A DNA stretch of 64,000 nucleotides. Origin: Owenia fusiformis (taxonomy: Eukaryota > Annelida > Polychaeta > Sabellida > Oweniidae). The notes beneath the pieces were generated by a model that did no database searches, was not told the origin of the DNA, and was given only the letters and a program-made list of their open reading frames with translations. How positions within the stretch are numbered: the first letter of the stretch is position 1; each line of letters begins with the position of its first letter. A program made the position numbers and the translations under genes. Shown piece after piece: positions 11,441-62,288 of this stretch. Location of the stretch: the NCBI GenBank assembly GCA_903813345.2, contig CAIIXF020000009.1, positions 4,090,001 to 4,154,000 on the forward strand, in the 5' to 3' direction.

Positions 11441-12196
11441 CAGGGATAATCACCCTGGGTATAGTCTGTCACGTGACTTCATGGATGACGTGTGCGCGAG
11501 TGATTCGCATTTTCTTTCGCTTGAGGTTTGTAATCACACTTTTTACATGTTTTAAGATTTTGTATCTCTGTGAAACTTGTCCCGTACCATCAATGTCTGA
11601 AGACGATCTAATTCACCAAATATCTCATCCAAGCGTGTCCCGGTTAAAGAGAAATTCGCACTTTTGTGTCTCGCAAAATGACGTGTGCGCGAGTAAATCG
11701 AATTTTACGAAGGATGGGTGCGCGAGTCTAAAATATTTTTATTCACTTGAGACAATTCTGCAAGCTAAGGCAGAATACAACTCACGTGACATTTGTTTTT
11801 GTCATCTTAAAGTAGTATGTTAAAGAATAGTTTGCTATTTTGTAGATGTTTCATGTATGGCACATACATGTCTACGTTTAATGACAATAAATGTTTTGAA
11901 ATAGCTTGTAGGGCTGTCCGGCATTGCAGGTGAATTAAAATTTGAACCAAAAATTGAATTAAATTTTTGGCGGTCTCATAAAACCGGCAGCATATTCATT
12001 TATTGACATCCCATACAAGGGGGGGGGTAAATAAATAATATTTTTTTCATTTTATTTACATCGGGACAATTTATAAATGTTATTTATAGTGCTAGGATGT
12101 AATATCAAATGAAAAGTGATCGTGAAACATTGACAAATAATGATTCAATCTTGTTTAGCCAGTTGATTTCTACGGGGACCTCAGAAATGAACAAAT

Positions 12197-12300
12197 ATTA
12201 TAACTCCGAGTTATAATTTCTACGCCTTCCCTGCGGCCTGTAAAAATCTGCATACGCCGTACGGAGGCCGCAAGGCGAGCGTAGTTTTTCTACGCTCGCC
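12197..12300. repeat. Hairpins in the middle of T1
   Basis: ATTATAACTC-C-GAGTTATAAT (12197-12217) is a 10-bp inverted pair. GGCGAGCGTAG/CTACGCTCGCC (12274-12284 and 12290-12300) is a perfect 11-bp stem with a TTTTT loop. The stretch to about 12360 is much more GC- and CpG-rich than its surroundings. Confidence 0.7.
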
Positions 12301-12769
12301 GCAGAAATTCATTGATTTAATTGATCTGCGGTCGACTTGCGGCCGCCGTGCGACAAATGTGACTGGGGTGTTATGAGTCGTTTCATGAAATTGTTCTAGA
12401 ATTGTAATACATACTATAAGGGCACGGTGTTTTCTAACTAATAACTACCTCAATAATTTATGATACCTTAAAGTGTTCTTGGGGTATATATTTTTAAACC
12501 AAATTCAAATCATTTTTAGTAGGGGAGGGGGAGGTATCAAGATTTTACCCATCAGAATACCTTGCTTTGGGGACAAATGCATGGTAGTGACGGGAATCAT
12601 TACCCAAACTATTTCGGGCGCAAATCAATTTTGTATTTGACTTTCTATTATGCTGTTCTTCAATTGTTTTTTACAAATGGAGGATCTGAGTACACGAAAG
12701 CTCATATTATATTGCTACATTTATAGCGAACATTGATTTCTGAGTCTGTAAAAACAAAGTATGTGGGAT

Positions 12770-13008
12770 CACCCTTGGTATACGCAGCTGACGAAATGGA
12801 CCGGTATGGGTCAAAAGCTGGACCTGTACGGGTGAACTTTGGGGGTACTTAAAATCATTCGGAGGGATCATATATTTCAACTTAGATACGAAGAAGTCAA
12901 TATTGAGCAAGTTATAGCTGTTTTAAATTCAAATAAAACCGTTAACCCGTACCGGTCCAGCTTTTGACCCGTACCGATCCATTTTGTCAGCTGCGTATAC
13001 CAAGGGTG
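12770..13008. mobile_element. Nested element T2: CACCCTTGGTATA ends, GGGAT 5-bp TSD
   Basis: A 239-bp element with inverted ends of about 60 bp. The left end is CACCCTTGGTATACGCAGCT and the right end its complement, continuing through ATGGACCGGTA/GGTCAAAAGCTGG. GGGAT at 12765-12769 and 13009-13013 is a perfect 5-bp TSD. The first 13 bases differ from the T1 terminus at one position, so the two belong to one superfamily although their bodies differ. It lies within the T1 middle. Confidence 0.85.
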
Positions 13009-13785
13009 GGGATGCGGAATAAGTTAGAAGCTCCTATAATTATTTGATATTACTTGGTATCATGGGCTTCCCCTTACTATTCCTTACATGGTTCTGATCG
13101 TGGCGGATGCCGCGTAACCACATAACAACTCTGATCCCCCCCCCCTTGTATGGGATGTCAATAAATGAATATGCTGCCGGTTTTACGAGACCGCCAAAAA
13201 TTTAATTCAATTTTTGGTTCAAATTTTAATTCACCTGCAATGCCGGACAGCCCTACAAGCTATTTCAAAACATTTATTGTCATTAAACGTAGACATGTAT
13301 GTGCCATACATGAAACATCTACAAAATAGCAAACTATTCTTTAACATACTACTTTAAGATGACAAAAACAAATGTCACGTGAGTTGTATTCTGCCTTAGC
13401 TTGCAGAATTGTCTCAAGTGAATAAAAATATTTTAGACTCGCGCACCCATCCTTCGTAAAATTCGATTTACTCGCGCACACGTCATTTTGCGAGACACAA
13501 AAGTGCGAATTTCTCTTTAACCGGGACACGCTTGGATGAGATATTTGGTGAATTAGATCGTCTTCAGACATTGATGGTACGGGACAAGTTTCACAGAGAT
13601 ACAAAATCTTAAAACATGTAAAAAGTGTGATTACAAACCTCAAGCGAAAGAAAATGCGAATCACTCGCGCACACGTCATCCATGAAGTCACGTGACAGAC
13701 TATACCCAGGGTGATAATGGGACTGACTCATACACTGTAGTCCCTATATTGTAAACGAATACCCTTTTTATATTCACATTCACAC

Positions 13786-13905
13786 TGGTGAAACAACCAG
13801 TATTGATATTACAATCATTTTTGAAGCACAACCAGTTTTGATATCACAATCAATTTTGAAGCACAATCAATTCTAATATCAAAATTATTCTTGAAGCACA
13901 ATCAA
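13786..13905. repeat. ~37-bp tandem repeat, ~3 units
   Basis: The TTTTGAAGCACAA(C/T)CA motif followed by TATCACAATCA recurs with moderate drift. Small minisatellite. Confidence 0.6.
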
Positions 13906-14008
13906 TTGATTATTCAGATCACACTCACACTGCTAACACAATCATAATCTTTGAAAGTTTGATGAAAAACAAGAGAAGGGTGACAGTTTTAAAAGGTTGA
14001 GGATGTTA

Positions 14009-14085
14009 ACTTGGCCACATGATCTTAACTTGGTCACATGATCATAACTAGGTCACATGCTCGTAACTAGGTCACATGACTCATG
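14009..14085. repeat. 19-bp tandem repeat, 4 units
   Basis: TAACT(A/T)GGTCACATG followed by a short variable stretch repeats four times, starting with AACTTGGCCACATGATCT. Each unit contains GTCACATG, an E-box-like word. Minisatellite. Confidence 0.65.
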
Positions 14086-14560
14086 AAGCAAAATCAGTAA
14101 ACCCGAACAACCTAATTTTCTGTATTATTCTCATATTTTGGACAACCCTGGTGTTTTTCAATATATATATCTTTTATTGACTCAATAACCATGTCATGTA
14201 AATGACATATCAGTCACGAAATACAAAACCTGATCTCAATCTCAAGATGACAGATTCACTGCTTGGTCTGCATATTATCTCTGAGAGTAGACTTATAATT
14301 GTACACTAGCACTTCAAAGTTGATTTTTATGCTTGTTTTTACAAGCAGGATAGCCATAATGCAGAAATCACACTCAACAGACCAAGATTAATGAGGTTTT
14401 GATGAGAAAATGTTATCTGTTATGTAATCCTTTGAGCCTAGGAGTCATCTTTTCTTGGATTTTCAAGCTTCAACACTGCCCTTTAACAAATAACATACTT
14501 AAGAGACGAGTGGGATTGGTATGCTAGAAGCAGAATCTCTCTTCCTGGACCTGACTTTAT
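14086..14560. other. No feature seen
   Basis: A short AT dinucleotide run is at 14161-14170. Otherwise nothing supportable. Confidence 0.4.
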
Positions 14561-14713
14561 CAACATGCAAAATTGTCACGACCTGCCATTTGTTGCAGAT
14601 GCTGAATGCCAAACACCAACAGCCAAATGCCAACCACCAAACACCATTCACAAAACAAAAAAGTTGGACACCATAACAAACAAAAAAATGTCACAACTTG
14701 TGGCAGTGGCATA
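14561..14713 (+). mobile_element. MITE family A, copy with expanded CCAAACACC tract
   Basis: Contains CAACATGCAA, the ACCTGCCATTTGTTGCAGAT core, repeated GCCAAACACCAAC words (decayed relatives of the GACGCCGGACGCC tract at 36159-36215) and the terminal GTGGCAGTGGCATA. It has lost the extreme left bases. Confidence 0.7.
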
Positions 14714-15129
14714 AAAATAGGCAAACATTTCCTAAAAATATAGAAATTTTTCATAGATTATCCAATTCATCCATACTGGAGAAGAGATTTTTAATTAAAA
14801 AAATTGACTCCCTTATCAATTTCTAGAAATGGATTAAAACAAGTACGAGTACAGGGAAGAAATATATTATACCAGAGAAAACTTCATTTATGATGGTCAC
14901 TCTTTGTAACAGATGTGCATCCTGGGTAAACTAATTTCACTCAAGTTCAATCAACTCTGCCTAACTAAGTTATTCCTTACTTAATTAAATTATATTACAC
15001 ATTCTAATTCTATTATTTCCACTTTAGGAAATTAGATGGTCTATAATGAACTACTATTTTTACAGTAACTATTCTCTTGAAGGTTTAACTCACTGTACTC
15101 ATCCAAGTGTATATTTAGATTGTAGTTGG
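14714..15129. other. No feature seen
   Basis: AT-rich stretch with no supportable gene or repeat. Confidence 0.4.
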
Positions 15130-15345
15130 GTCTAAATCTTCATTTGGTCTCATTTTATATTTAAGCAGTATCTTCATTTTACCTGAATCTTTATTCAATC
15201 TGGATCTTCATTTGATTTGAATCTTCAATTGACCCGGATTTTCATTTGATCTGGATCTTAATTTGATAAAAATCTTCATTTGGTATTAAATCCTCATTTG
15301 ATCTTAATCTTCATTTGATCTGAATCTGTATTTGATCTGGTCAGC
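15130..15345. repeat. ~20-bp minisatellite, TCTTCATTTGATCTG unit
   Basis: About ten degenerate units of the form (A/G)ATCTTCATTTGATCTGG. Non-coding. Confidence 0.7.
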
Positions 15346-17515
15346 AAATATGTGAAAATGCAGGATGTAAATTCTATAGTCTCCTATTATACTAGATACC
15401 TCTTGGAGAAAATACAATGATGATTAAGCTCTGAATTCAAAATCCCTGTAAAATCATGAAAATGTGCATATGAAAATGTGCACATTAGTAGATGACACTC
15501 TTAGTCATGATTAGAGAATCCCTGTTATATTGATGGAATGAATTTGAAGACAAAAAAAAACAAGAAATTAGATGAACGGAATAGAATAATTTGAACTGGT
15601 AATAACAGACTTGGTCTAGTAATTCCCCCTATGTATAAAACATAACTGATACAATTTTGAAAATTGAACGAGATCAAAGATTGAGAAATAACCAAGAGGA
15701 TGATCATATATACATGAAGTTGACATTTTCTAAATTATGCAAAGATTCAAGATAATTGACCACCTTATTAAGACCTCAGAGAAAATAAACAATAAATTAT
15801 ATACACAAACTGACAATATTTTCAGCGGAGATTATATGTTCCTAATGCAGGCTTTAAATTGAGTAGTTGTGTCACGTTACAAAAAACAATTATTTCCGAT
15901 CAACAAAACAGATTTATACTATTAGCCTATTTATTTCAAGTGGTGATGGGAACACTTTATACATGTCCATACAGCCACTCTACTAAAAAACATGCAAAAC
16001 AACTCTAACGATTGAGATTATTAAGATTTGAGATCAAAATCAACAAAATAAAATGACTTGCTGAAGTCAGAGGGCGGTGTGGCTAACCAAGGAGAATTCA
16101 GAGTACTATCAGAAGAATCAACGGAACCTAGTTCGTTTTTTCACATGAATAATATTTGATTTGTTTGACTTACCTTTGATTTGAAGACAACAAACAAAAA
16201 CAACCATCCCAAGCACTGTTACCATGGCAATCATTTTATGTCATTTTTTGACTTACCTGAAAATATATATTAACAAAAACACAATAAGATACAGTCAAAT
16301 AAAAGTCAATATATTATGCTTTTTACAAGTTTTCCAGGAGTAATTCACATATAGAAAAATGACTAAATATAGCATTTGACCTTGCCTGTATACAGGGTGA
16401 GCCCGACCCTAACCGTTACACAAAATATGTTCTTCTTTTGAAAGTGACATATATTTTGGTTATTGGAGACCTGAAACCAGAGGAATGTCATAAGATAAAA
16501 TAGATGAAAATTTAGAAAGATGAATAGAAAGAATGTCCCACTAAACATGGATTTTGTTCCAGTTCTCTTTTAACTTTGAACGATATGCCAAATTTTCCAG
16601 GCTTTATATGTCATTATGTTTACACTACATGCTCATTTTCTAAATATTCAATGCTGGTTCCACTATTTTCCACTTTATTTTACATTTTGAAACATGATCA
16701 CCTCAGCATTTCTGTAAAGGGCTGAATGATTGATAGATGTTTTCAATACCATGGCATGGCTAACTTCATTAGGGACCTGGGATCAAAGTCATGGAATATC
16801 ATCAAGCCATATCTCCCTGTGGGGATTAATAACATATCCAGAGGGAATAATAACTGATTTATCTCCCTTTCTAATGATAGGGATTTATGGGAAAATATAA
16901 TGAATATACTTGATGTACTAAAATGATGTATAAAACTATTGGCTGCTTAATTTATTTTTCCATGCTCGGGTGGTTTCAATTATTGGCTGGAACAACAAAA
17001 CCCTCTGCAAGAGCTTGACTTGAGTGTACTCTTGAAATTGCAGTCAATTGTTTGATGTAGCCTATATTCAATGAATATGTATGTATAGGTACCATGGAAA
17101 GTACCACATATGGTTACAGAACCCAGTAAAAACAGAACATCTAAAGATACACCAGATGAGGAAAACAAACCCCTTTTCTAAGGTAGTCATCATCATCAGG
17201 TACATCATTTTCTACCAATATGTAATCAAAATCATTCAGGCTAAATCTGAGATATGATTAGCAAAATCAAAATCATCTCTTTTAGTGAGAGGGGAGTGTG
17301 GCTAACTGATATTTATGCAGGGTAAAAGTCAGAGGGGAGTTATTATAGCTAGCTGGTAGAAATACAGGGTAGCTAATGCTGTCTCTATGTTAATGAAAAA
17401 AATATTTATTTCTTCTTGATCATTTGTAATGAAGTGATCATATATTATATTCTTTATTTCTTCGATCTGGTACTAAATATAAATAAAAGAGATAGAAAAG
17501 ATTTATATGATACGC
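15346..17515. other. No gene seen
   Basis: About 2.2 kb without supportable exons. The phrases GTGTGGCTAACCAAGG (near 16078) and GTGTGGCTAACTGATA (near 17297) hint at a diverged dispersed repeat but are too short to call. Confidence 0.35.
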
Positions 17516-17519
17516 CCAT

Positions 17520-17592
17520 GCAGACACACAATGCTGTACAGACACACAATGCTGATACAGACACACAATGCTGATACAGACACACAATGCAC
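17520..17592. repeat. 19-bp minisatellite, ~4 units
   Basis: GACACACAATGCTGATACA is repeated nearly perfectly, so the array is young or homogenised. Confidence 0.75.
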
Positions 17593-17922
17593 GCACGCCT
17601 ATCATTGCAAGAGGATGATAAAATTCCGAATGTAATAAATTATCAGAAATGCGATTGTAAAGTAACATTGTAATAGACAATTGTTTCAGATAGTTTTATT
17701 GTTTTTACTTGACAAACAATTGTATTGATCACTCAAGGATAACACATTTCTTTCAGAGTCTGACGCAAGTAGATCATTTTGTTGATTGTAATATCACATA
17801 TAGATGGGGGACATAGAGTTATGGGGAGGGGACACGGAACGATATAAGCACAAATGTCAAGAACACAGTCAGTTTTTATATGATTTGATTAGAATCAGCA
17901 TGTATAAGAACATAATAACATG

Positions 17923-18085
17923 CAGGGTTTTCACTAGAATTTCTCACAACAGGTTAAATAAATGTAAACAACAGGCAAAATTAATGGAAATCATAAATTA
18001 ACATGGAAAAGTTGAAAAAGCCTTAAAAACAGCAAACAATTTTGTGAAAACAACCAGTGTAAATTGCCTGCTAATGAAACCCCTG
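17923..18085. mobile_element. hAT-like MITE, CAGGGTTTTCACTAG...GAAACCCCTG, copy 1
   Basis: About 163 bp, with ends CAGGGTTTTCACTAGAA and AATGAAACCCCTG that are roughly inverted. The interior (TTTCTCACAACAGG, GGCAAAATTAATGGAAATCA, AACATGGAAAAGTTGAAAA) matches the 41011-41179 copy, which has a clear 8-bp TSD. A TSD for this copy is not evident. Confidence 0.7.
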
Positions 18086-18302
18086 ATATGGTTGTTAATT
18101 TTGTCATAAGGCACCTGTAGGAATAGTTTAGCTACAAGCCCTTGTGAGTTAAGTGAGCCCCTCCCCCCTTCAACTTGGTTTGAGGTAGACAAGGGGAGAA
18201 AGTCACAGCCACAAGACTATAAGAGAAAATGGTAATGAGCAACAAGGATGGGATAATGGTGAAGAGGGAGTGGTACAATATGACATAAATTACCATGGCA
18301 TG

Positions 18303-18457
18303 CAGTAAAACCTGTGTATATTGAACATTTTTTGCCAAGAAAAAACGTCCAGTGTTGGCAAGAGAGGGTAAGATTAGTTGAGTTTGTGCAGAGGAAGTAT
18401 GTCCACTAGAGACAGGTGCTCGCTAGAGAGGGCTATTTACTAAGACGGGTTTTACTG
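18303..18457 (+). mobile_element. pogo-like MITE (family G), copy 1
   Basis: Begins CAGTAAAACCTGTGTATATT and ends GGGTTTTACTG, an inverted pair. The interior carries the family's TTGAACATTTTTTGCCAAG and TGTCCACTAGAGACAGGTG words. A TA TSD is not preserved here but is seen in other copies. Non-coding. Confidence 0.75.
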
Positions 18458-18977
18458 AACTGAAACGAACAATAGAAAACTAAAGTTCTCTCCATAACAA
18501 TTCATGATACTTCACCAATGATAATATAAAAAAAAAAAACATTTAAACAAACCTAAAAAGCCTACATTCAAAATTGCAAGATGATTGTAAATACCAATAA
18601 GACAAATAACATTGATATGACGATAGTAACATTCTGACGAAGGGAATTAGAGCATCAGTGATATCACGGATGCTTGCTTAAATCCACGCATGGGTGAACT
18701 GATTGATTTTCGCATATCTAAGAACCGTGTTCTAAAAAGCTAAGAAGAAGTCATGTGAAATGTAACGTCATCATTATTTTAGCTGTTTCCCTTACAAATG
18801 TTAAACTTCAGAGTTTTAAATCATGAAAAATAATCTAAAAATAAGCTGAAAGATATTACATAGTTGAAGATTAAATATGAAAAGGTATAATTTGAAAGGC
18901 AAACAATCGGGATGAACATTTGGTATAAACATTGACAAACATATTTCAGTTGACAAGAAAAGTAAAAAGATAATACA
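18458..18977. other. No feature seen
   Basis: Nothing supportable apart from a poly-A run near 18529. Confidence 0.4.
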
Positions 18978-19187
18978 CAGTGATCTCCCCAGCATTGAAG
19001 CAAGTGGGCGCAGCACCCACCTGAGATTTTGAAAGTAGGCTTGCACCCACTTGAAAACCCATTTTCACCCACTTGAAAATGAGAAAAATCATGAAAAATT
19101 CATTGGTAAATGTTGACCAACTTTGGTCTGAATTGTGAAAATAAGAATTTTGCCCCCACCTGGGAAAAAATCCTGGGGAGATCACTG
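18978..19187 (+). mobile_element. MITE family B, reference copy
   Basis: 210 bp. The left end CAGTGATCTCCCCAGCATT and right end TCCTGGGGAGATCACTG share a 15-bp perfect inverted terminus. The interior contains ACCCACTTGAAAATGAGAAA and TTTGGTCTGAATTGTGAAAA. It is the best preserved copy in the window. Flanks do not show an obvious TSD. Several overlapping minus-strand ORFs here are shadows of the repeat. Confidence 0.85.
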
Positions 19188-19754
19188 ATGCATGTATAAT
19201 TCACTGATAATGAAGTTACTTATTCATTACATTTTCAAAAATATATTTTCTAAGAATTAGATTACTTCACCTCTATCATTTACGCAAAACTGGCTGAACG
19301 TGGCATCGTAAATAATAGTTTCACATGCATGAATGCAAAGAAAAACTATGTAGGCGTAAGATTTTTCATGGATTGATGAGCCCTTAGGAATGAGTAGTAA
19401 CCTTACTATACTTTCTGTCTAACGTAACATAAAGAAAGTTAATTCACTTTGTACTTAATCTATCAAAAGTATGATAATTTTATTATCAGATGATTCAATT
19501 ATCATGTAATCGAATCCCTCAATGATTTCTCTTTTTTCTAACTGGGACCCCTATGTCAATTAGATTACATGCACTAATGAACATAGCACAATCAAAATAG
19601 AATAAAATCATATTTATTTCACTTTTTTATGGATATAGGAAACATTAAATCAACTGTACTAATATTTCCTGATATTTTATCTGAAATTTTATTCATAAAA
19701 TATATTATATCCAGATTCAGAACATCACGAGATGATTGTACTTAAAACATTAAG
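19188..19754. other. No feature seen
   Basis: No supportable gene or repeat. Confidence 0.4.
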
Positions 19755-20280
19755 TTCAATTGAGACATCTAATTGTCATTGTGCACTCTAACTGTCAATA
19801 TGTACTCTTAGAGTCAATCTGTACTCTATCAATATGTGCTTGAACTGTCAATGTGCACTCCAACTGTCAATATGCGCTCTAACTGTTAATGTACATGCTA
19901 ACTGCCAATATGCACTCTAACTGTTTATCTGTACTCTTAGTGTCAATCTGTACTCTATCAATATGTGCTTGAACTGTCAATGTGCACTCCAACTGTCAAT
20001 ATGCGCTCTAACTGTTAATGTACATGCTAACTGCCAATATGCACTCTAACTGTTTATCTGTACTCTTAGTGTCAATCTGTACTCTATCAATATGTGCTTG
20101 AACTGTCAATGTGCACTCCAACTGTCAATATATACTCTAACTGTTTATATGTACTCTAACTGTCAATATAATTTGGACTCTAAATGTATATATGTACTGT
20201 CAATTTGCACTTTAACTGTCAATTTACACTCTAACTGTCAGTATGCACTCTAAATGTCCAAATGCACTTTAGACTATCTA
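19755..20280. repeat. ~20-bp minisatellite with 129-bp higher-order repeat
   Basis: The basic unit resembles AACTGTCAATATGCACTCT. In the centre a multi-unit block repeats as a whole: CTCTATCAATATGTGCTTG begins at 19824, 19953 and 20082, exactly 129 bp apart, with nearly identical sequence between. The edges are made of diverged single units. This layered structure is typical of arrays growing by unequal exchange at two scales. Confidence 0.85.
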
Positions 20281-20998
20281 TGAGACCTACATTTCAATTC
20301 CCGAACCTTAATCTTCCGATCAACAGTCCCACAGATTTAATCCCTAAGAATAATTCACTAATGAAAAATCACCACCGATTTATTACAAGTTTGACATATA
20401 CACTCTCATAAACCACGTCCCTGATTGGACAAGGGTCTCTGATTGGGAATGAATACCTGATTGGTAGCCCCCAAAGGTATACAGCCTGATTGGAGTGTCA
20501 AAGATATTGCAAATATTAGGGACTTAAATTAATTCCCTTTTGACAAATGTGACAGTAGGTACACTGATGTATTAGGGAGCTAATCTCAGCTTTGCATAAA
20601 GAACCTATATAATATAATAGCACTGGTCAAGCTTTGAGAAAAACATTTCATCTGTCATTGCCTAATATAAACCTCCCAGGCTCTAAAATTGGTTTGAAAC
20701 CAGAAGATCTTTCATTTTTGCTTGCTTTGGACATTTTACTTCATATATGTAATGGAAGATATTCAAATGCGTGAAATTAGCTAGCAGAAATCATTTTAAG
20801 ACGTGTTTTTGTGTGAATTGTCCAAATTAGAGTAATTTTAGTGAAATATTTTGTGACAGATTATCCCGTCACTCAAGGTTTCAAGATCATTCCTGATTGA
20901 AGCGGCGAAAAATCGCATCACGTTGGGTAGTCAATAGGTTAAAGGCGTTCTCAATCCAAGATTCAAGATCTGCAATATATGAATCATATAGGATTGAA
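20281..20998. other. No gene seen
   Basis: Short repeated phrases CTGATTGG(A/G) at 20412-20495 may be a degenerate tandem repeat. Otherwise nothing can be supported. Confidence 0.35.
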
Positions 20999-21345
20999 TA
21001 AAGCTACGTTCACACCAACGGCTTTACTCCGAGCTTTTCTATGACCTATTACGACCCCTACGCTTTAATCAAGCTTTGTTACGCTTTGGTGCCGCTTTAC
21101 AAGTCACTTTAAAGCGCCATGCTTTGGTGCCACTTTGCTCGCCGATTTAAAGCGTGGCATTCGCCGTTTGTGTAAACTTAGCTTTCAAAATGTTTGGCGC
21201 TCTTGCCGAATATCTCGCTTTACTCAGAGCTTTTCTACGACCTATTACGACCCGACGCTTTAATCAAGCTTTGTAACACTTTGGTGCCGCTTTACAAGCC
21301 GCTTTAAAGCGCCATCAAAGCGCCGTTGGTGTGAACGTAGCTTTA
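20999..21345. mobile_element. TA-flanked MITE, AAAGCTACGTTCACACCAACG ends
   Basis: The ends AAGCTACGTTCACACCAACG and GCCGTTGGTGTGAACGTAGC are inverted and bounded by TA on both sides. The inside is built from repeated GCTTTA(C/A), AAAGCG and TTTGGTGCCGCTTT words, and a block of about 80 bp (CTTTACTC(C/A)GAGCTTTTCTA...) occurs twice, at 21022 and 21218. A TA TSD fits Tc1/mariner-like or another TA-targeting family. The CpG content is high for the region. Confidence 0.8.
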
Positions 21346-21495
21346 GGGAGGGGGCACAGAGACTACTAGGAATCATTTATTTCACATGCATAAACCAAAC
21401 AAATATAGTCATAATACACACAAATTATGGACTACTTAAAAGTCAAACATATTTGAGGAAAAACTCAATTATATGAAAATGTAAAAATATGAGTT

Positions 21496-22144: not shown

Positions 22145-22424
22145 TCAAATAACATGAGAAAAACCATGAATAAGTAAGTAGATATTCCAAGCAAAATGTA
22201 TTCTCTAGTACAGTAAGTAATAATATGAGATTTATGTATTGGAAACTTCCTCCGTTTCTCCATGTCACTACAAAACAAACTTCTCTATTTCGAACGATAA
22301 AGGCTGCAGTAATCGAACAAAAATTACACCAAATTGAACCAAAATACCACATTCTTTGAAACAGAAAACCAGAAAATCTGTAGTTTTAAAACATTTCGGA
22401 GAGAAAATATGAAATTTGTGTAAC

Positions 22425-26950: not shown

Positions 26951-26958
26951 GTAATAAC

Positions 26959-47950: not shown

Positions 47951-47951
47951 A

Positions 47952-48568: not shown

Positions 48569-48570
48569 TA

Positions 48571-50390: not shown

Positions 50391-50392
50391 TA

Positions 50393-50579: not shown

Positions 50580-50581
50580 TA

Positions 50582-52097: not shown

Positions 52098-52227
52098 ACA
52101 AGGCATTAATAATATGCAGTGTCACCACCTGCCATTTGTTATAGATGCAATTGCCGAACACCAACCACCCAACATTGCCACAAAAAGTTGGAGACTGTTA
52201 ACAATGTGTCATAAAGTGGGTGACATA
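52098..52227 (+). mobile_element. MITE family A, full-length copy
   Basis: ACAAGGCATTAATAATATGC, the GTCACCACCTGCCATTTGTT core, AAAAGTTGGAGACTG and the terminal GTGGGTGACATA. 130 bp. Confidence 0.75.
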
Positions 52228-53603
52228 AAAAATTGTGCCTGAGAGTCAGTATTTCTTTGAAAGGCACAATATTTACAGAATTGTTAAAATTGTAAATCAC
52301 ACCATCATTCTGGGACCGTCATACAGTGCTTGTCGTATACGTGAGGGTGTCCTACCTTTTTGTGCATATCCCACATTACATATCTTTCAACCATTCTCAA
52401 AAATCATTTAAAACTGAGATATGACCTAATTTTTCTTACTTACATACTTCACTATAACAAGAATATCAACAATTATTTCATTTCTTCAAAGAGATTCTGT
52501 CATCTTGTTAGAAAAGAAACTGATGGAAAGACCCAGGGTATGAAATCTCTGTAACCCCCCCCCCGCCATACCCCTCCCTTTTTATCTCCTTCCTTCCAGG
52601 TGTAAGGAAGGGGGGGTATGAAGTGAGAACAATAGCTATTAATTTGTTTCTATCTAAAATAGTTGTTTTTCTTAAATTAGGGTTTGCCTTGAAATTGAAA
52701 CCAAGGGTTTAAGAATATTTTCAAGGGATTTAGTATTTATTGCTTCCAAACATAACCTTTGGTCACTTTATGGTAAGTATATACAACAGATGTATTCATT
52801 ACACAGATTTGGTATTCAAATGCAGAATATCTATTTCAACTCTGTGGTCATGCATATAAAAGTTCTTTATTTCTTGAATTCCAAATTTGATTTGTTGATT
52901 TTATTTATCACAGTCCTACTACAGGTTTCAATTTCAGGCTTTTCAATATTGTTACAAAACCAAACTTTACTTTTCAGCTTTGATTTCTATTTGACCCGAA
53001 CATAAAATGAAACTCATGCTTTAATGTTTCACAAAATCTTTCTTTGGGATATTTTCAGAGTTCCTGATTGTATAAGAATTCTACAAAGGAGCTGACAATA
53101 TCATGCATGCTGTGTACTGTATTGTAGCCGATATCAAGTATGTTCTCTTTTTTCTCATGGAAAATATCGCCATCTTAATATTCTATTCGCTGATTTGGGT
53201 TTATGTACATTTTGAACCTAGGGTCATGGATTAGTACCTCTTCAAACGGGCACTTGAATTGTCAACAACGAAATAACATTTTATTATTTGGATAACCATT
53301 TTGTATCTAAGTATTTCTCATTGGTTAAAAGAATGGGAAAACCGACGTCCACATATCGGGAAACAATTCCATGGCTTAATACTTTAATGCTTAAGATAAT
53401 TGTTTGCTGATACTGGCTAAATCGCATTTGGGCAGAAAGCAATTCATTTTGTTTGATCAATGTTGATTATATAGGTTAAATCTGATTTAACATGGCTATT
53501 CAGGAATCAACAAGATAAACTATACATTAAATCTGCATAGATTTCCCAGCAGGGATAAAATGTTCAGTAGATATAGCAGATTTGGCCAAACTCTACAAGA
53601 TGT
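52228..53603. other. No gene seen
   Basis: The ORFs at 52360-52554 and 52790-53005 lack motifs and splice context. GGGGGG/CCCCCC runs are at 52556 and 52609. Confidence 0.4.
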
Positions 53604-53760
53604 CGATCTCCTTGCTCATATATTCTGCACCTACTTAGACTTTGAAAACATTGGCTTGCCCCAACCTGAAAATCCATTTATACACAATTGAAATGAGGAT
53701 ATCAAAAAATAACTTGTGTTAACATTAGTAATAATTGTGAAAATAGAATCATAACCCAAT
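53604..53760 (+). mobile_element. MITE family B, badly decayed copy
   Basis: Scattered matches: GATCTCC, GCACCTACTTAGACTTTGAAAA, CTGAAAATCCATTTA, TTGAAATGAGGATATC and AATTGTGAAAATAGAA, in family order. Confidence 0.45.
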
Positions 53761-53910
53761 TGATAAAATCCCCCCCCCCTGATATCCATTTAAAAATATA
53801 TTGTTAATATTGAACTTTTTGTCTTGCTATAACAGATTTATTTTCACTTGTACTCTTATGACTTGTTCTGTTTTGAATTCTTATAACTGTATCACTTTTA
53901 TACTGGAGCC

Positions 53911-54074
53911 CAGGGCCGTAGCCAGGGGGGTTTGCAGGGTTCGGGTGAACCACCCCCTGGCCAAAAAGTCTTTCAAAATCATGCAGTTTTTCACCATTTT
54001 GAGCATGTGAACCCCCGAGGAAATTTTTGAAAACTGAACCTCCCCCCCCTTGGCAAATCCTGGCTACAGGCCTG
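53911..54074 (-). mobile_element. MITE family C, GGAGCC 6-bp TSD
   Basis: GGAGCC at 53905-53910 and 54075-54080 is a perfect 6-bp TSD around CAGGGCCGTAGCCAGG...CCTGGCTACAGGCCTG. Reverse orientation relative to 39755. Confidence 0.9.
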
Positions 54075-54080
54075 GGAGCC

Positions 54081-54709
54081 TATAGAGGTTTGGTTTTAAA
54101 TACTGCTTTTATTGGTTATATGGCTTTTTTAGTTCTTGGGACATCTCATGTTGCCCTTTGTGCTTTCTGATCCTATTATAATTCTACTATTTTAAAGATA
54201 AAACTCTTAGTTTTTAACATTTCTCTCCTTTATTTAATTCATTTCATCATTTATAGCAAGAAAATTGATGAAGAAACAAAAACCGAAAATGCTAAATACC
54301 AGGTGGTAATTTCTTCATTATAAAATACAGCTTCAGAATAACATATGTTTTACAGTGGATATCAGATAAACACCCTGTTCTAAAATAACACATGGGACAT
54401 GGAGCATTTCAAATAAATGGGCCTAGTAAAGGTAATAAAAGCCAGAACCAAGAAGTTTAGTGTCTAAATGTTTTAACATACTGACAGAAGAGGTAGAATA
54501 AAGAATGAAGCCTTGTTCTTAGAAAACAGAAACTGTTTCTGCTTCATCACTTTGATGATGTAAACTTGATTTATGTATTATGGTACAAGTTTGCAGAAAA
54601 CTTAGACTCAGATCTGTTCATATCAGCTATTTTATCAGAAAGGTGTGGCTCGTTAAACCCTTAGCAACCCTCTTCCCCCTCTGAGACCCTTCTTGAGTTT
54701 TTAACATTG
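54081..54709. other. No feature seen
   Basis: No supportable gene or repeat. Confidence 0.4.
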
Positions 54710-54850
54710 CAGTGTTCTCCCTAGCATTAAAGCAACACCCACCTGAGACTTTAAAAACAGGCTTGTGCTAAACCTGAAAATCCATTTGCACCCACTTGAA
54801 AATGAGAAAAATCATGAAATATAGGCATATTTTGACCAATTTCAGAATGT
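54710..54850 (+). mobile_element. MITE family B, right-truncated copy
   Basis: CAGTGTTCTCCCTAGCATT, ACCTGAGACTTTAAAAACAG, GCACCCACTTGAAAATGAGA and TTTTGACCAATTTCAGAAT, then lost. Confidence 0.7.
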
Positions 54851-55950
54851 ATTGTTTTCTCAAAAGAATATAAAAAAGGAGATTCCAGAGGTTTTCTGTC
54901 TCAGTCAATCAGCCAAAATATAGTTCTTAGACTCGCCTTAATCTCTTATGAGTCCCCTCACCTCCTTTACATATACTCCAGAAGGGCTCTGAACGTAAAT
55001 TGTTAGGGGGGGGGAGTCTGAAGCAAGGCTATATACTCTTCTGTCTAAAACGTGTTCCCAAATCTTAAGGTCTACGAAGAAACACTCTTGAAACTTGTTG
55101 TAGATGAAACACTTTCAGATATGTGGTCAAAGGAAACCCCTAAAGGGACCCACTTCAATTTACTAAACATTGTTCTTTCATCATACACAAAACCTTACTT
55201 TGTAAATGATGGTCTTTGATAGGAGACCATTTGGTTGGATTAATCAAGGTATCCCATTAGACAGAATGGCAAGTGCAAAAGGGTGTCTTGTCTCCAAAAA
55301 AACCTAAATGCAGCCCCCATCCTTAATGCAAGGTTATTTAGCTTCTTTCCCTTATATGAAGGATGCCCCCTATCCCCTTCTCCTTTCCCAACCCGAATTC
55401 CCAAACCCCATTATCAATCATGCACTTTTGCTTTCTCAAATGTTACCCTTTATGATTTTCCTTCATTGAATGAATGTGAATGGTGAAAATGTATCAAATC
55501 ATAGATTTAAATTCGTAACCAGACAAAATAAGCCTTATTAACAAATAGAGTTATCAGAAAATTTGAGATAAAACAGTCCACCAGTTTATAATGTCAATCA
55601 AGACAAAAACCAAATTTCACACATATCCCTTTTCAGCTTTTTCACTGATAAAACCTTTAGGTGAAGACACTTGAATTGATTAACTTGATCTTTTTTAAAG
55701 GTCTGTAATATAAAAGTATTGACAATGTTTGCAAAGGGAAATATCAAGAAAAATCTCTTATGTTTAATATGAATTATCTTATCAGGTTGTTAGCCTACTT
55801 GAGAATGTTTGAACAATGATATCTATACTATACAGTCACCATGTTGCCTTACACTGAGCCTTAGCTCTTTGATTTACCAGAAATCCTAGTAATAATATAC
55901 CACATTGTAGTTATATGTTCATACCCTTTGAAAATAGTCTGACTAAATAC
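54851..55950. other. No gene seen
   Basis: No supportable exon. A GGGGGGGGAG run is at 55007. Confidence 0.4.
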
Positions 55951-56360
55951 AACTCTTAGGAGATCTCTATATTTTCTTCAACTTACAGGATGTTTTGTAT
56001 CTACAGTTAGTAATTACCCTTTGAAGAGTGAGACTTCACAACTCTTAAGAGATCTCTATATTTTCTTCAACTTACTACCCTTTGCATTCGTTTGACTTTG
56101 CTTCTTAAAAGAGAGCTTCGTCTTATGTAGTTTAACTAGACTCTGCATGCAGGGTATCAACTTACAGGATATTTTGTCTTAAATGATTATCTTCAGTTAG
56201 TAGTTACCCTTTGAAGAGTGGGACTTCACAACTCTTAGGAGATCTCCACATTTTCTTCATAGTCTTCTGATAGGATATTTCGTCTAGAAGGATTATCTTC
56301 AGTTACCCTTTGTAAAGAGTGAGACTTCATATCTCTAAAGGAGATCTCAACCATTTTCTT
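55951..56360. repeat. ~90-100-bp tandem repeat, ~4 units
   Basis: Units start at AACTCTTAGGAGATCTC (about 55951, 56039, 56230; worn at 56331) and include TTACCCTTTG(A/T)AGAGTG(A/G)GACTTCA. Allowing for the 81-bp MITE and its TSD in the second unit, spacing is about 88-101 bp. Confidence 0.7.
56076..56156 (-). mobile_element. Miniature family D element (81 bp) with 9-bp TSD
   Basis: TCAACTTAC at 56067-56075 and 56157-56165 is a perfect 9-bp TSD. The element is only the two ends of family D joined: TACCCTTTGCATTCGTTTGA...GAGAGCTTCGTCTT then GTAGTTTAACTAGACTCTGC...AGGGTA. About 290 bp of interior is absent. Confidence 0.9.
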
Positions 56361-56392
56361 ATTTGGTTTTTTCTATGCCACATCCCCTTTGC

Positions 56393-56425
56393 ATTTGTTC
56401 GACTTCACTTCTTAAAAGCAGGGTA
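56393..56425 (-). mobile_element. Family D remnant of 33 bp
   Basis: TCCCCTTTGCATTTGTTCGA...CTTCTTAAAAGCAGGGTA. It holds the left 25-30 bp of family D fused to the last 7 of the right end. Flanks TATGCCACA and TTGCCACA resemble a worn 8- to 9-bp TSD. Confidence 0.6.
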
Positions 56426-56703
56426 TTGCCACAGGTTCTTAGGTCTCAAGCTTTAAATAAAGTTAGAGAGGGTCTAATAAAGGGTCCAGACTGGTCATTA
56501 TTTCCAAGCTTAGTGGCTGAATGATATAATTCTATGACACAAAATCATACTTAATGTTCATGCTCCGAATTACATAAAAACTATGGTTAACTAGATCTTT
56601 ACTAATTTTATTAGAAGAACGTTGTAACAAAAATCAGAGTTGAATTTTCTCCCTGAGGTTTCGGTAGCAAATTTCATGGCGTGTCATGCTTTATATTCTC
56701 CAC

Positions 56704-56920
56704 TGGGTGCAAGTGGATTTTTAACTGGGTATAAATATATTTAATTGGGTACAAATAGATCTTTAACTGGGTACAAATATATTTTAAACTGGGTTCAATA
56801 GATTTAAATGGATAAAAATTGATTTTTAATTGGGTACAAATAGATTTTTCATTGGGTACAAATAGATTTTAATTGGGTATAAATAGATCAAATATATTTT
56901 AAACTGGGTGCAGACAATCT
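56704..56920. repeat. ~22-bp minisatellite, ACTGGGTACAAATAGATTTTT unit
   Basis: About nine degenerate units of AA(C/T)TGGGTACAAATA(G/T)AT with variable T-runs. Confidence 0.75.
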
Positions 56921-57027
56921 CATTATTCTCAACCAGGTGCAATTCCTGCTTGCACCAAATCTGAAGATTATTCCAAAATACCCTTTACAATATTTTTATT
57001 TTTCCTCTACATAATAATTACTGGGCT

Positions 57028-57295
57028 ATGAGTACTCATCCTCCTAAGCAGGTGTCCAGAATCCGTACCTCCTTCTTCCCCCTGCTATAAGCAGTTAGCA
57101 TTTCCCCGATTAAGAACTCGCAATTTTATTGGCTGTCGCAACACTGCGACAGCAATCATGTATACGTCATCGGCGCATAATTAGATCACGTGATTCAGTT
57201 TAATCGGGTGCGTCCAACTTGGTTATAGCAGGGGGTAAAAAGAAAGAAGATATTCTGGATTTTGAAGCACTGTGATTGGAGGATGTGAGTACTAG
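57028..57295. mobile_element. Foldback MITE with central 9-bp hairpin
   Basis: GAGTACTCATCCTCC and GGAGGATGTGAGTAC are the outer inverted ends. CCAGAATC/ATTCTGGA, CCCCCTGCTATAA/TTATAGCAGGGGG and CCCGATTAA/TTTAATCGGG pair further in. Between them GCTGTCGCA/TGCGACAGC (57132-57140 and 57145-57153) is a perfect small hairpin. CpG-rich, with CCAAT (ATTGG) and CACGTG words. Confidence 0.7.
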
Positions 57296-59551
57296 GAGTT
57301 TCAGGGTAATCCTATCACAACATTCATCTTTGTAACTATTCAATAAATAAAATTGTCTGAGATACTCTTATAGAACAGTTCCTCCGATATATCATCTCAA
57401 TAATACGTCAAGTTGCTATCAATATAGATTTTTTGAGGATTTTATCCATAGTTAAATAAATCACATTTAGTCTATTGATTACACTGGCTAGTTCAATCTT
57501 ATACTGCCTATGAATATAATGTTATGGTGTACAGTAAGTCATGTTGTTGCTGAATCAGAGAAAACCATGGGAAATAAAGAATAAAATGTCTTTCAATCAA
57601 TTCCACATTTTGTAGAATTATTTTGGGTTAAAAGGAGTTTCAGATCTAGCGAACATCCTTCGCCTTTAACAAAAATTGTTTCAATTTTAGAATATCTTGC
57701 CTCATATAATTCCTTGTCATGTCTTTATCTAGATCTTTTGTGAAGTATTGAATTTGAGACCATAAGGAATTATCAGAAGGTCAATTGTACCATTTTTTGT
57801 AATTTTAAGCGAACTGGTTTCTTCAAATATATTTCAGTTGGATCTTAAGTATACTTTGCAAGATGACTTACTTAAGTCTCATACTCTTCATATTGCTGGT
57901 AACCTCCAAAATCAGAAAGTCAATTAAAGCAATGAAGGACTGTGACTTACAGCACCAAACTCTAAAAAATGACAGGATCTAGTCAGACAACCAGATTAGA
58001 TGTTATTTTACCAGAAAATGAGTTCAGGGTAGCAAAATGTTCACTATACATCACTCTCTAATTGGTTAAACACACACTATAAAATGACTGGTTTTAGTCA
58101 GAGGCTAATACAATAGTGCACGATTATCTCAGGGTATTTCTAAATAATGAATCAGGTAGAGAGATTTAGGATCATAAAATAAACCAAATGCACCTCATAA
58201 CATTTAAGATACATAGAAAGGAATATTTAATAACAACTCAAAGTGTCTATACTACTTCAGGAAGTGGTTTCATTGAATGGAGTCAGAGAATATATCTGTG
58301 GTTAACATATAATATTTTCTTTCAATCATTCTGACAGGTAGTTTAAAAGGATAGTAGGGGGCAGGTTGACATTGTTTGTTTTGTTTTTATTTATATGGAA
58401 GAATATATAAAACAAGTTGATATTCTAGAAATAAAACAAAGCAAAATTGATGGCTTTATTATTATATGAATCTATAAACATGAATATATCAAATCAAGAT
58501 ATGTGCATACAATTATGCTAAACCTCATAACTTAACTTAAATGAAAGCTATGTTCCAGAAAGGATTTTCCTCAATTTGGTACAAAATTCTCATTTTCACA
58601 ATTCAGACCAGAATTGGTCAACATATGCACATGGCCAAAATTTGTATATAAAAATAATACGGTATGGTAATATCGCATACAAAAATACATTTATTCAAAA
58701 TTTATGAAGGGGCAAAGCAATGAAAACAAGGATACTAAAAACAAATTTTTAATAACAAAAGTTTCCGATACTATCACATATGGATGTACATATGAGATAT
58801 CTGTGCGATTTATTGAAAAAAAACACTAGAAGACAGGGTAAAATATACTAGAAAAGCTACTTAAGGGTCATTTATTACGGAAAATGTTGTTGAGTTAAGC
58901 ATGTTAACGAAGGTACTACCTCATTTATTACAATGTGTCGATATTCGCAGAAAATGCATACTTCCAACAAAGGCTAATGATATTAATAATTTACTATGCC
59001 GTAAAACTAATGAAGTGGCATTCACGCCTTGCCAATCCTGGATGTTTTCTCATTCCAAAGGAGGGAGGTGGGGGGGGGTAAGGGTTTGCGTTCCTGCTCT
59101 GGAAAAGAAGTTAAGTGTACTAGGAGGGCAGGGCTTATTTAGATTGGAACATGATTTACATGTACTTGTGCTTGTAGCATATTTTCATGCATACATATTT
59201 TTACGCCATTCCTCCATCTGATGTCATACTATTATAAATTTTGACAGCCTGACCTTATACAGAGCCATGCTTTCAGCCTACATTATGTATCTCTGAAAGT
59301 TTTGACCGAAGGTAAAAGTAAAAAGATTGAGGTCAAATGTACAAGTGTATTTCGTGATGGAACTATGTGTGTGAAGTCATGAGCATGGAGAATCAGAATA
59401 TGAGAAAAACAACATACAATGACAACAATATCTAACATAAACACTGTCCAGCTCCTTCTAGTTCAACCTGAACTAAAGATGGAAATATCAAAATAATAAA
59501 TAAAGAACACCTGTCAAAATCAAATCAGAATTCCAGGTGTATTCTTCTTAC
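57296..59551. other. No further exon identified
   Basis: A fragment of family B in reverse (AATTCTCATTTTCACAATTC and AGACCAGAATTGGTCAAC) lies at 58583-58625. The plus ORF at 58901-59221 lacks motifs. This stretch would be intron 1 of the gene starting at 59716 if that call is right. Confidence 0.4.
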
Positions 59552-59716
59552 CTGAACTTTTGATTGGTTTTCTTTATTTTCTTCTTCTGGGTTGCAGCTC
59601 CCATTCACCATAGATATCGGTCCTTTCATGATTAGCCCATTGATCCTAACAGTCGTTGCTTCCAGCTTCATTTCAGAGTTCAAATCTCTACTCAAAACTT
59701 TTTCAACTTCCGCCAT
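59552..59716 (-). CDS. First coding exon of an unidentified gene (55 codons)
   Basis: The start ATG is at 59716-59714 in AAACATGGCGG, a strong Kozak context that also fits a YY1-type initiator. The exon reads MAEVEKVLSRDLNSEMKLEA at its start and ends ...EEENKENQSKVQ. It closes in phase 0 at CAG|GTAAGAAG, a near-ideal donor (GT at 59551-59550). The open frame extends one further codon group upstream only through a TTG, so the ATG is chosen as start. The product begins acidic and polar with no signal peptide, suggesting a cytosolic or nuclear protein. I do not recognise the family and found no second exon. The gene would run leftwards, possibly with large introns. Confidence 0.6.
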
Positions 59717-59900
59717 GTTTTTCAAAACGGAAAGTTGAAAAGTGTTAGTGAAGTTTTCTTTTCAAATTTCCCTCCTCTGCCGTTGCGTAACTGTATTGAC
59801 ACTACTCCAAAAAGTTATTGATGTGAAGTTCTAAATGCTGTTAAACATTAAGACTCCCTGGAAGCTTCTATTTAGTATTTATTCCGCTTACAGATCAAAT
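59717..59900 (-). promoter_or_regulatory. Probable 5' region of the 59716 gene
   Basis: Upstream (to the right) of the ATG lie GCGTAACTG, TTTCCCTCCTCTGCCG and ACGGAAAG words and no TATA box at a useful distance. This is consistent with a TATA-less promoter, but the sites are weak evidence on their own. From 59901 to the T3 target at 60183 I see only a poly-G tract (60121-60145). Confidence 0.3.
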
Positions 59901-60187
59901 AAAGGAAGAACGGTGTTGACTCTGCAAAAACAGATGACCATATGAAGACAAAGCCCGGATGACAACAAATTGACAATTATACAATCGCGACACCTATACT
60001 CAACTAAAGTATGAAAAACATTAATTCATAAAATTAAAACCTGCGACATCTTTACATCAATAAATCACAGCTCAAGGTCTACAGAACGTGTCATTTCACC
60101 AGAGACATAGCAGGTAGTCGAGGGGGGGGGGGGGGTGGTGGGGGTCGGAGAGCTTGCGTTGATACAGAAGATTAAAGGAAGTATTAA

Positions 60188-62288
60188 CACAGGCTGGTAT
60201 CGAAAAAATTGTCCGCTGTGACGGAGCGTGCTATTTTGCATAGAAACACTAGGAAATCCTCACAATTTATTTTTTTACTCATATGTTTTGCTATATCAAA
60301 GAAAATTACTGACTCCATGCAATGAATATATCATTTGCGGGTAACTTTAACTTCTGTTTGAAGTCCAACAACGCTAAGAGTAAAAGCTATTGAAAACGGC
60401 GTCGGAGTATCATACTCCAAAATGTACCATTTCTTTTATTTCTTTTTAATGGCACAATATAGCGACACGATAATATTTACATATGTTTTAAGGATAACTC
60501 TGAAGGTATTAATGAGATTTTTATGTATTGGGTATTTTTAATTTTTTCAATAAAAAATAATGTTTAATTTTTTTGTCCGCTGTGACGGAGCAGTTTCAAA
60601 TCTGAAATACGTTAAGAATTTATATCTCTTTATAACTACACGTTAGAGGAGGGAGCGTATCAAATCTCTTTCGTAAAGTATTCTGAAAAATAAAACGGAA
60701 TAAAAGTACACAATTCAAATTCTGAGATGTATATACGACCACTCTTTAAGCTTCTTTTCTCAGTTTGTACTGTAATCCAAGTTATGCATGGTAACTCATG
60801 AAAATGATAGTCAACTTTATTTCAGTATAGGGTAATTGCCTTTCGTTGTGCCTACTGTGGATCCATCACCTGACATGGTCATTTTTTATGGTAACTTATA
60901 TACAGTAATATTATGTGGTAAAAGGTTATACATCTGTCGGAACGCAGGATGTCTGTGCGCTATTTCGAATAAATTCATAGTATCCCTATTTATGCAATGG
61001 TTACGCGGTAAACACGATACAAAAATATGCCATATTCCGCAACGAATATGCCATATTCACTTGCGGTGTATGACAGATTCACCTGTGGTATATGGCATAC
61101 ACACTAACCAATGAGAACGTGATACGGATGTATGCAATTGTCAATTGCATCGATTGAACGAACAAGTAAAACTTTATAAATTATTATAATGATTACTGAA
61201 TCAACAGTACAGTTTATCGAATACATCGATATCAACGTATGCAGAAGTATCACTCACCAATCTCACGTAATAAACTTACCCAATCAATCCAGGATTCATA
61301 TATTAGTACGCACTGACAGTATTGGTAATCCAGCGTAGTTTTACATTCAGAGTCGATTCTCGCAACCAATCAAACCAAGTCTTTCTGTATCACGTTTTTC
61401 AACTGCGGAATATGTCATATTCAACTGCTGTATATGGCATATTCCGCAAGTGAGTATGACATATTCTGAAGATGAGTATCGGGTATTCACTGAATTCAAT
61501 GCATCACATATTCACTGCGGAATATTGCATACTCACCTGCGGAATGGCATATTCACCCGTATCACAAATACCGCGCAACCATGAATGTATGCCATATTCC
61601 GCGTAACAATTTACACTACACGTGACATTCTAAGACGTCTTGGCGAAAACGTATTAGATATATTATGTTGAGTTTACACCATGTTGATTCATGTTGATTT
61701 CAGTACAAACCTCCGAAAAATGCTAAGAGTGGTCGTTTTTATATCTCAGATTTACATTACCCCAGATCTCCCAGAGGCTACTTGTCATAATTTAGGAAGT
61801 GATTTGTGACGTTCTTTCTTCTTAGGGTACTTTTAAAAGGTATAATTTGAATCTTAAATTCTTAACGTAGTTCACAGTTAAAACTGCTCCGTCAAAGCGG
61901 ACAAAAATGTAAACATTATTTTTTATAAAAAATATTAAAAATACCCAATACATCAAGATATCATTAATACCTTCAGAGTTATCCTTAAAACATATGTAAA
62001 TATTATCGTGTCGCTATATTGTACCATTAAAAAGAAATAAAAGAAATGGTACATTTTGGAGCATGATACCCCGGCGCTGTTTTCAATAGCTCTTACTCTT
62101 AGCGTTGTTGGACTTCAAACAAAAGTTAAAGTTACCCGCAAATGATATACCCATTGCATGGAGTAAGAAACTTGCTTTGGTATAGCGAAACATATGAGTA
62201 AAAAAATTAATTGTGTGGGTTTTTTAGTGTTTCTATGCAAAATAGCACGCTCCGTCACAGCGGACAAATTTTTCGATACCAGCCTGTG
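60188..62288. mobile_element. Long-TIR element T3: CACAGGCTGGTATCG ends, ATTAA 5-bp TSD
   Basis: ATTAA at 60183-60187 and 62289-62293 is a perfect 5-bp TSD. Arms of about 600 bp (60188-60785 and 61695-62288) are inverted copies with visible divergence and indels. Each arm contains TTGTCCGCTGTGACGGAGC twice: right inside the end (near 60210 and 62250) and about 370 bp further in (near 60573 and 61885, one worn). The 0.9-kb centre holds a further foldback (60990-61600). The start CAC...TGGTAT, the TSD length and the arm length all match T1. No transposase ORF. Confidence 0.85.
60990..61600. repeat. Foldback with ATATGCCATATTCCGC words inside T3
   Basis: GGTTACGCGGTA...GATAC (60998) pairs with GTATCAC...TACCGCGCAACC (61560-61580). 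Many copies of TATGCCATATTC and GCGGAATATG(G/T)CATA in both orientations lie between 61025-61105 and 61400-61600. The core 61110-61390 is single-copy. It may be another nested element or clustered protein-binding sites. Confidence 0.65.

Follow-up and report, generated by a model that had tools for sequence, protein, structure and literature searches.

A window of 64,000 nucleotides from Owenia fusiformis (C9:4090001-4154000, in a host genome of 498 Mb and 525 contigs) contains three transposable elements, T1, T2 and T3, which begin with CAC and lie between 5-bp target-site duplications (TSDs). In the host genome, T1 and T3 each form a repeat family, and three further families found outside the window, T4, T5 and T6, have ends of the same type. 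Across T1 and T3 to T6, the TSD was 5 bp long in 39 of the 40 copies with both tips whole. The clan is real and somewhat unusual, and cut-and-paste transposition of the kind found in the CACTA-Mirage-Chapaev-Transib (CMCT) assemblage is its best-supported reading. In the explanation toward which we lean, with some reserve, the clan combines a CMCT-type cut-and-paste core, a zinc-finger exon and a recognition array in the terminal inverted repeats (TIRs), and its transposase acts in trans.

CAC-ended elements of the window and their families

The window was scanned for CAC...GTG inverted-repeat pairs (16 bp with at most 2 mismatches, 120 to 6000 bp apart). Among the 24 pairs obtained, those of T1, T2 and T3 only had a 5-bp flanking repeat; one other had a 4-bp repeat (within the T1 arms), and 20 had none. 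With ten other start triplets in the same scan, 5-bp cases appeared with CCA only (3 of 78 pairs). On re-reading, the coordinates, termini and TSDs that a first-pass annotation had given for the three elements proved correct (Table 1). Its arms of about 580 to 600 bp hold for T1; those of T3 are shorter, with a weaker block reaching about 593 bp. The terminal bases of T1 and T2 are identical at 12 of 13 positions, and the longest stop-to-stop frames in the window copies of T1 and T3 have 123 and 92 codons, respectively.

Table 1. Positions of T1, T2 and T3 and their parts in the window
Feature	Position	Strand	Details
T1 copy, non-autonomous, CAC-ended	11451..13713		2263 bp; 577-bp inverted arms 99.8%; 117 exact 27-bp tips genome-wide
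T1 left TSD ATAAT	11446..11450	+	
T1 right TSD ATAAT	13714..13718	+	
T1 left arm, left-type end	11451..12027	+	
T1 right arm, also left-type in the window copy (palindromized derivative)	13137..13713	-	
T1 motif copy 1	11483..11508	+	TIR position 33
T1 motif copy 2	11676..11701	+	TIR position 226; 21/26 identical
T1 motif copy 3, weaker	11709..11734	+	TIR position 259; 15/26 identical
T2, 239-bp miniature inverted-repeat transposable element, tip CACCCTTGGTATA, nested in T1	12770..13008		old insertion common to T1 copies
T2 left TSD GGGAT	12765..12769	+	
T2 right TSD GGGAT	13009..13013	+	
T3 copy, non-autonomous, CAC-ended	60188..62288		2101 bp; 435-bp arms 92%; 50 exact 29-bp left tips genome-wide
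T3 left TSD ATTAA	60183..60187	+	
T3 right TSD ATTAA	62289..62293	+	
T3 motif copy 1	60206..60231	+	TIR position 19
T3 motif copy 2	60570..60595	+	TIR position 383; 19/26 identical

The exact genome matches to the first 27 bp of T1 (117; control, 0) were accompanied by arms that were 99 to 100% identical in the best 40 by score, and the family is apparently young. In all 22 copies read (20 with two tips, the window copy, and L043, which is 7.2 kb long), the TSD was exactly 5 bp and in none 6 bp. At two of 14 single-tip loci, L051 and L052, another whole tip was visible together with a 5-bp TSD, which brings the count to 24 of 24 copies with both tips whole; at 11 of the 14, no second tip was visible. 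The TSDs have 26% G+C compared with 38% in the flanks, and their outer positions both favor T or A.

Comparison of the ends in the 22 copies separated two kinds, a left-type end that runs beyond 577 to 945 bp and further, and a right-type end that has 327 to 334 bp in common with the left type and then continues with its own sequence. One end of each type was present in 14 of the 22 copies and the left type on both sides in 7, including the window copy, while L008 was unclear. The family TIR therefore measures about 327 bp, with the 577-bp palindrome a secondary feature; the 577-bp arm in the window is a property of that copy, not of the T1 family. The left-type interiors of L005 (1443-1958), L043, L046, and L049 contain a C2H2 open reading frame (ORF; Pfam zf-C2H2) with a maximum length of 172 codons, which could be the family's own gene or a captured fragment. 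It had seven genome matches at 84 to 100%, of which six lay in or beside T1 copies and the seventh, on C12, was not placed against the T1 tips listed (100 of the 117).

Twenty distinct T1 copies contain T2 between identical flanking sequences (22 entries were compared, two of them repeats of a locus). GGGAT stood on both sides in 13 of these. In the other 7 (L006, L014, L015, L018, L019, L045, and L047), T2 is the center of a palindrome, and the same outer flank therefore occurs on both of its sides. Given the common flanks, T2 was inserted once in a T1 ancestor and multiplied afterward with T1. The elements of the window, first presented as three separate members, are distinct families with one end type, but T2 is thus not an independent event there. 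In the palindromic copies, it looks as if the inverted repeats of T2 had acted as the turning point of the end duplication. A genome search with the tip CACCCTKGGTATAW, shared by T1 and T2, gave 72 matches versus 10 in the control, T2-like tips being common. About three-quarters of the matches read CACCCTTGGTATAT. They were taken, without an individual check, for CpG-decayed T2 copies, and the tip was set aside as a route to other families.

T3 is probably of the same type as T1, to which it is tied by end type, TSD, and motif layout only. Its first 29 bp had 50 exact genome matches (control, 0), and the best 40 arms by score were 97 to 100% identical. Both tips were present in 7 of 13 fetched copies and, with the window copy added, the TSD was 5 bp in 8 of 8; in 5 further copies, no right end was found within the fetched stretches. 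L062 sits in the arm of another T3 copy, with the TSD TGCAT. Another locus, L071 (C9:16220755), has only its first 33 bp in common with T3 and then diverges; it could represent either another family or an insertion nested in T3. A serious contender, although we incline the other way, is that T3 is unrelated to T1 and T2 and came to its CAC ends and 5-bp TSD by convergence, as its ends differ past CAC and a loose TGGTAT, its TIR length and motif positions (19 and 383) are unlike those of T1, and the N-terminal exon described below was not recognized in the window, T3 included. The constant TSD length, a tip-adjacent motif repeated in the TIR, and a similar size class speak for kinship instead.

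A candidate zinc-finger exon, further families, and repeated motifs in the TIRs

Deletion derivatives of T1 pointed to a candidate exon, about 390 bp inward of the right tip, for an N-terminal zinc finger. Right-type interiors contain a splice-acceptor-like CTTTCTCCCTTTGCAG, then the candidate exon encoding MYACYHCPPGTQRFEGLEGVALHTWEEHKYDEFRFY..., which appears C2H2-like from the spacing of its residues. A genome search with this exon gave 71 matches at E ≤ 10, which included loci of three further families. T4 was represented by four exon loci (tip CACGGTAGGGATTGTCATCACGTGAC, 325-bp TIR, TSD TACAA in the sole complete copy, L072), T5 by two (tip CACCCTGGACGAAG, 73-bp TIR, TSD AACAT in L078, the one complete copy), and T6 by four (tip CACTGTGGCTAGTCG, starting with CACTGTG). 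T6 tips number 304 in the genome (control, 0; 100 listed), and 5 of 6 complete T6 copies have 5-bp TSDs (TAAAA, TGTGA, TAACA, TCATA, and CATTA), so that the complete copies of T4 to T6 have the 5-bp TSD in 7 of 8. At the boundary of the 10 exon-bearing loci read, CAC was found in 9 and CAT in 1. The view that separate families share one end type with a 5-bp TSD was thereby borne out, with more such families in the genome. The first-pass annotation had also called the heptamer non-standard, and T1 to T5 do lack the standard one, T6 alone starting with CACTGTG. On the reverse strand of L076, at about 5619, a T6 copy breaks off where a T1 copy starts, i.e., T1 was inserted in T6.

The ATG of the exon lies 392 bp from the tip in T1, 383 bp in T4, and 364 bp in T6, while the finger of T5 lies at 517, unlike the other three. 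Similarity of the exon between families is modest and is highest between T1 and T4 (16 of 37 residues identical). T1, T4, T5, and T6 are tied together by the common candidate exon, T2 by its tip, and T3 by type only. It is improbable that the exon is a captured fragment of a host zinc-finger gene and that T4 to T6 are not kin of T1 through a transposase gene. Such a capture would agree with the modest similarity and with the second, possibly captured C2H2 ORF in T1, but the near-constant distance from the CAC tip in T1, T4, and T6, next to 5-bp TSDs, makes repeated independent captures unlikely, and the TIRs of T1 and T4 align with matched motif spacing.

The TIRs of T1 and T4, about 327 bp each, carry three copies of a family-specific motif. 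The 26-bp motif at position 33 of T1 is repeated at 226 and 259 (Table 1), and a different motif at position 32 of T4 is repeated at 225 (21/26 identical) and 257 (17/26), with copies at the same positions in the other T4 end (19/26 and 18/26). Positions 61 to 330 of the two TIRs were aligned with a score of 102 versus a maximum of 85 in 100 shuffles, and the tips, identical at 23 of 32 positions, with a score of 28 versus a maximum of 20 in 1000 shuffles. The number of motif repeats was 3 in T1 (shuffles, mean 0.05, maximum 1) and 2 in the left end of T3 (mean 0.25, maximum 1). Spacing that is kept while the sequence changes suggests binding sites that change together with the DNA-binding part. 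Galileo is a tested precedent, with long TIRs carrying three binding sites of an N-terminal finger, as described in passages of PMC3688188.

Several observations weigh against this interpretation. No catalytic domain was recognized in any T1 to T6 copy read, and mobilization in trans by a CMCT enzyme is therefore only inferred. The exon matches were weak, with E values of 0.003 to 0.05 for T4, 0.4 to 0.5 for T6, and 1.5 to 1.7 for T5, the surroundings were read for 10 of the 71 outside T1 copies, and the relatedness of T4 to T6 accordingly rests on the place of the exon, the CAC ends, and the TSDs. The N-terminal exons had no Pfam zinc-finger match at E ≤ 5, their third-position excess is slight (16/15/23), and no copy was recognized in T3 or in the rest of the window. 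The motif repeats were compared with 20 shuffles, a small number. In the two T4 ends, the 2 repeats observed equaled the shuffle maximum of 2 (means 0.4 and 0.25), the right end of T3 had 1 (mean 0.6, maximum 3), T5 had 2, below the maximum of 3, and T6 had none. Repeat number alone is thus strong for T1 and the left end of T3 only, and the case for T4 lies in positions that match those of T1. Among the ends, one of the four T4 loci has the CAT boundary, L080 (T6) has TTTATA on both sides, i.e., 6 identical flanking bases, and the damaged right tip of L047 (T1) and the shortened right tip of L068 (T3) have no 5-bp repeat. Among copies with both tips whole, the tabulation of TSD length proposed at the outset gave 5 bp throughout except for L080, whose 6 bp is the one departure of the kind named there as counting against the idea.

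The search for a transposase and the relation to known systems

The ancestor of the clan would have had a gene of several exons, read inward from one of the ends, its N-terminal exon encoding a C2H2-like zinc finger. The long TIR of T1 and T4 would serve as a recognition array in which the zinc-finger part would likely bind the three motif copies, whose spacing is fixed, and the CAC tip would be the site of cleavage. A transposase encoded elsewhere in the genome would bring both ends together, cleave them at CAC, and join them to the target with a 5-bp stagger, and, since it is supplied from elsewhere, deletion derivatives and end-duplicated palindromes would stay mobile so long as their TIRs survive. 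We consider the CMCT assemblage the most likely home of the catalytic core, on its Transib or its CACTA side. CMCT transposons have mostly CA..TG ends and TSDs of 2 to 5 bp, according to passages of PMC12730594.

A RAG1-core probe was checked in PDB, where it found RAG1, RAG1L (6b40, E 1.8e-43), and weakly the DNA transposase 6pqn (E 0.0044), which we take to be HzTransib. In the genome, the probe gave four weak matches (E 0.22 to 2.9) in the zone of its 6pqn match, at C8:5760587, C4:30069793, C1:15861987, and C483:165093; the open frames of these matches have, in no stated order, 729, 726, 359, and 116 codons. The three in frames of 359 to 729 codons are possibly Transib transposases. None of the four lay within 20 kb of the T1, T3, or T6 tips listed. 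The Pfam RAG1 model had no match in the genome, but its controls were equally silent, and that null result carries no information.

A CMC probe gave 23 genome matches, including families X, Y, and L087, and Transposase_21 (PF02992) was present in these three, the families read. Family X (L085, L086, and seven more places) occupies nine places that all have one score and an open frame of 608 codons; the two places compared were 99.98% identical over 4770 bp. None of the CMC-probe matches lay within 20 kb of the T1, T3, or T6 tips listed, similarity between the N-terminal regions of X, Y, and L087 and the T exons was not significant, and no link between these families and the T1 to T6 ends was found in the stretches read, which stop short of the ends of X. 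Among the T6 tips listed, at least 8 spacings exceed 5.5 kb. The four long copies read, L081 to L084, had no intact transposase by ORF reading, and one ORF in L081 had no Pfam match. A check for autonomous partners had been proposed; no partner with the transposase of another superfamily was found, nor one with a Transib-type enzyme, hAT, P, and MULE transposases not having been searched for.

The assignment to Transib and the RAG lineage made at first sight agrees with the CAC ends and the 5-bp TSD and lacks a catalytic domain in the copies read, where no RAG1-like core was recognized and RAG2L was not searched for. T1 to T6 could be ordinary Transib families mobilized by a one-ORF Transib transposase of the host, the zinc-finger exon being an add-on or a leftover, a possibility that we hold to be distinctly weaker than the explanation above. 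T6 has the heptamer-like CACTGTG, and the RAG1-core probe reaches four genome places in the zone of its presumed HzTransib match, but these matches are weak and distant from the tips listed, and they could be copies of one family and hence one chance event. Transib prefers GC-rich targets, whereas T1 targets are AT-rich, and a multi-exon gene would be unlike the Transib transposases, which are not known to be multi-exon. T1 and T4 also differ from Transib and RAGL in their TIRs, which are 327 to 577 bp long and contain repeated motifs. The 5'-CAC ends and 5-bp TSDs are shared with Transib, RAGL, and ProtoRAG and are described as products of RAG, RAGL, and Transib in passages of PMC7204232 and PMC9435367, but by eye the tips of T1 to T6 misfit the protostome RAGL consensus CACTWMCAAACKTYKBB given in a passage of PMC7204232. 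Filing the clan under Transib is not yet justified, because the transposase is unseen and the tips depart from the RAGL TIR consensus.

A CACTA-like enzyme is the chief alternative to a Transib one. EnSpm/CACTA elements have CAC...GTG termini like those of the clan, and the CACTA-like family X has, by reading, an apparent C2H2 first exon and apparently several exons. EnSpm TSDs measure 2 to 4 bp. No Transposase_21 domain was linked to the T1 to T6 ends (T1, T3, and T6 tips listed), and the EnSpm TSD is 3 bp in a passage of PMC12730594, in contrast to the 5 bp of the clan.

A catalytic part from outside CMCT appears unlikely. In that case, the families would be foldback-like members of a P/Galileo-like, hAT5, or MULE group with independently acquired CA...TG ends. 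According to passages of PMC3688188 and PMC3573991, the TIRs of Galileo, a member of the P superfamily, are about 0.3 to 1.2 kb long and contain three THAP binding sites, and some non-autonomous copies have lengthened TIRs. T1 is much like this in its long TIRs, its three spaced motifs that resemble binding sites, and non-autonomous copies whose TIRs are lengthened by internal sequence. The Galileo TSD is 7 bp in a passage of PMC3573991, not 5 bp, and at E ≤ 5 Pfam matched none of the N-terminal exons to THAP, although it did not match them to C2H2 either. hAT5 makes 5-bp TSDs according to a passage of PMC12730594, and in TSD length alone it fits the clan.

With CMCT-like cut-and-paste as the preferred reading, the clan might, more speculatively, form a lineage of its own next to Transib and CACTA, with a zinc-finger transposase encoded in several exons and an end array of three sites, the spacing of which is kept while the motif changes with the finger. 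V(D)J recombination is believed to derive from the chemistry of CAC ends and a 5-bp stagger. A clan that combines such ends with long, motif-bearing TIRs and an N-terminal zinc finger would illustrate how far the recognition part can vary while the cleavage rule stays the same. Because the motif spacing of T1 matches that of T4, the recognition hypothesis can be tested directly, and the enzyme could be named from a full-length member. If the lineage is separate, it would offer a natural series of co-evolving finger-and-site pairs and an end logic between the subterminal repeats of CACTA and the RAG/Transib signal. No description of such elements was recognized among the papers listed in a literature search.

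Nested elements and rejected partners

Three inserts in T1 copies were considered as parts of an autonomous partner or a full-length element and rejected. L004, L011, and L021 carry the same reverse-transcriptase insert at high identity (PF00078 in L011), and because it is common to the three, T1 seems to have moved with retrotransposon cargo, which is not a partner. The 7.2-kb copy L043 was rejected as a full-length T1, since it holds a nested element; six of its ORFs matched nothing in Pfam below E 0.08. The nested element, at 1025-5875, is 4.85 kb long, with 542-bp TIRs, the tip AGGTAGTGATC, a TSD of 3 to 4 bp, and broken ORFs.

The rve integrase (PF00665) of the 5.0-kb T1 copy L022 (C11:22668197-22673239) sits in a Polinton fragment with a chromodomain-like end, which lies inside a T1 arm. 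The fragment has its own AGTAGTT tip and a 6-bp TSD, CATGTC, and is therefore nested and not a partner. Long TIRs, and the integrase inside this one copy, are shared with Polinton/Maverick, which differs in its AG terminus and 6-bp TSD; the T1 ends are not Polinton ends. The 3' flanks (2.5 kb) of 20 of the 123 integrase matches had no match to the T1 or T3 arms longer than 15 bp. Polintons are abundant in the genome, with 123 integrase matches, 11 of them of identical score, and AGTAGTT tips with a 6-bp TSD in the clade read.

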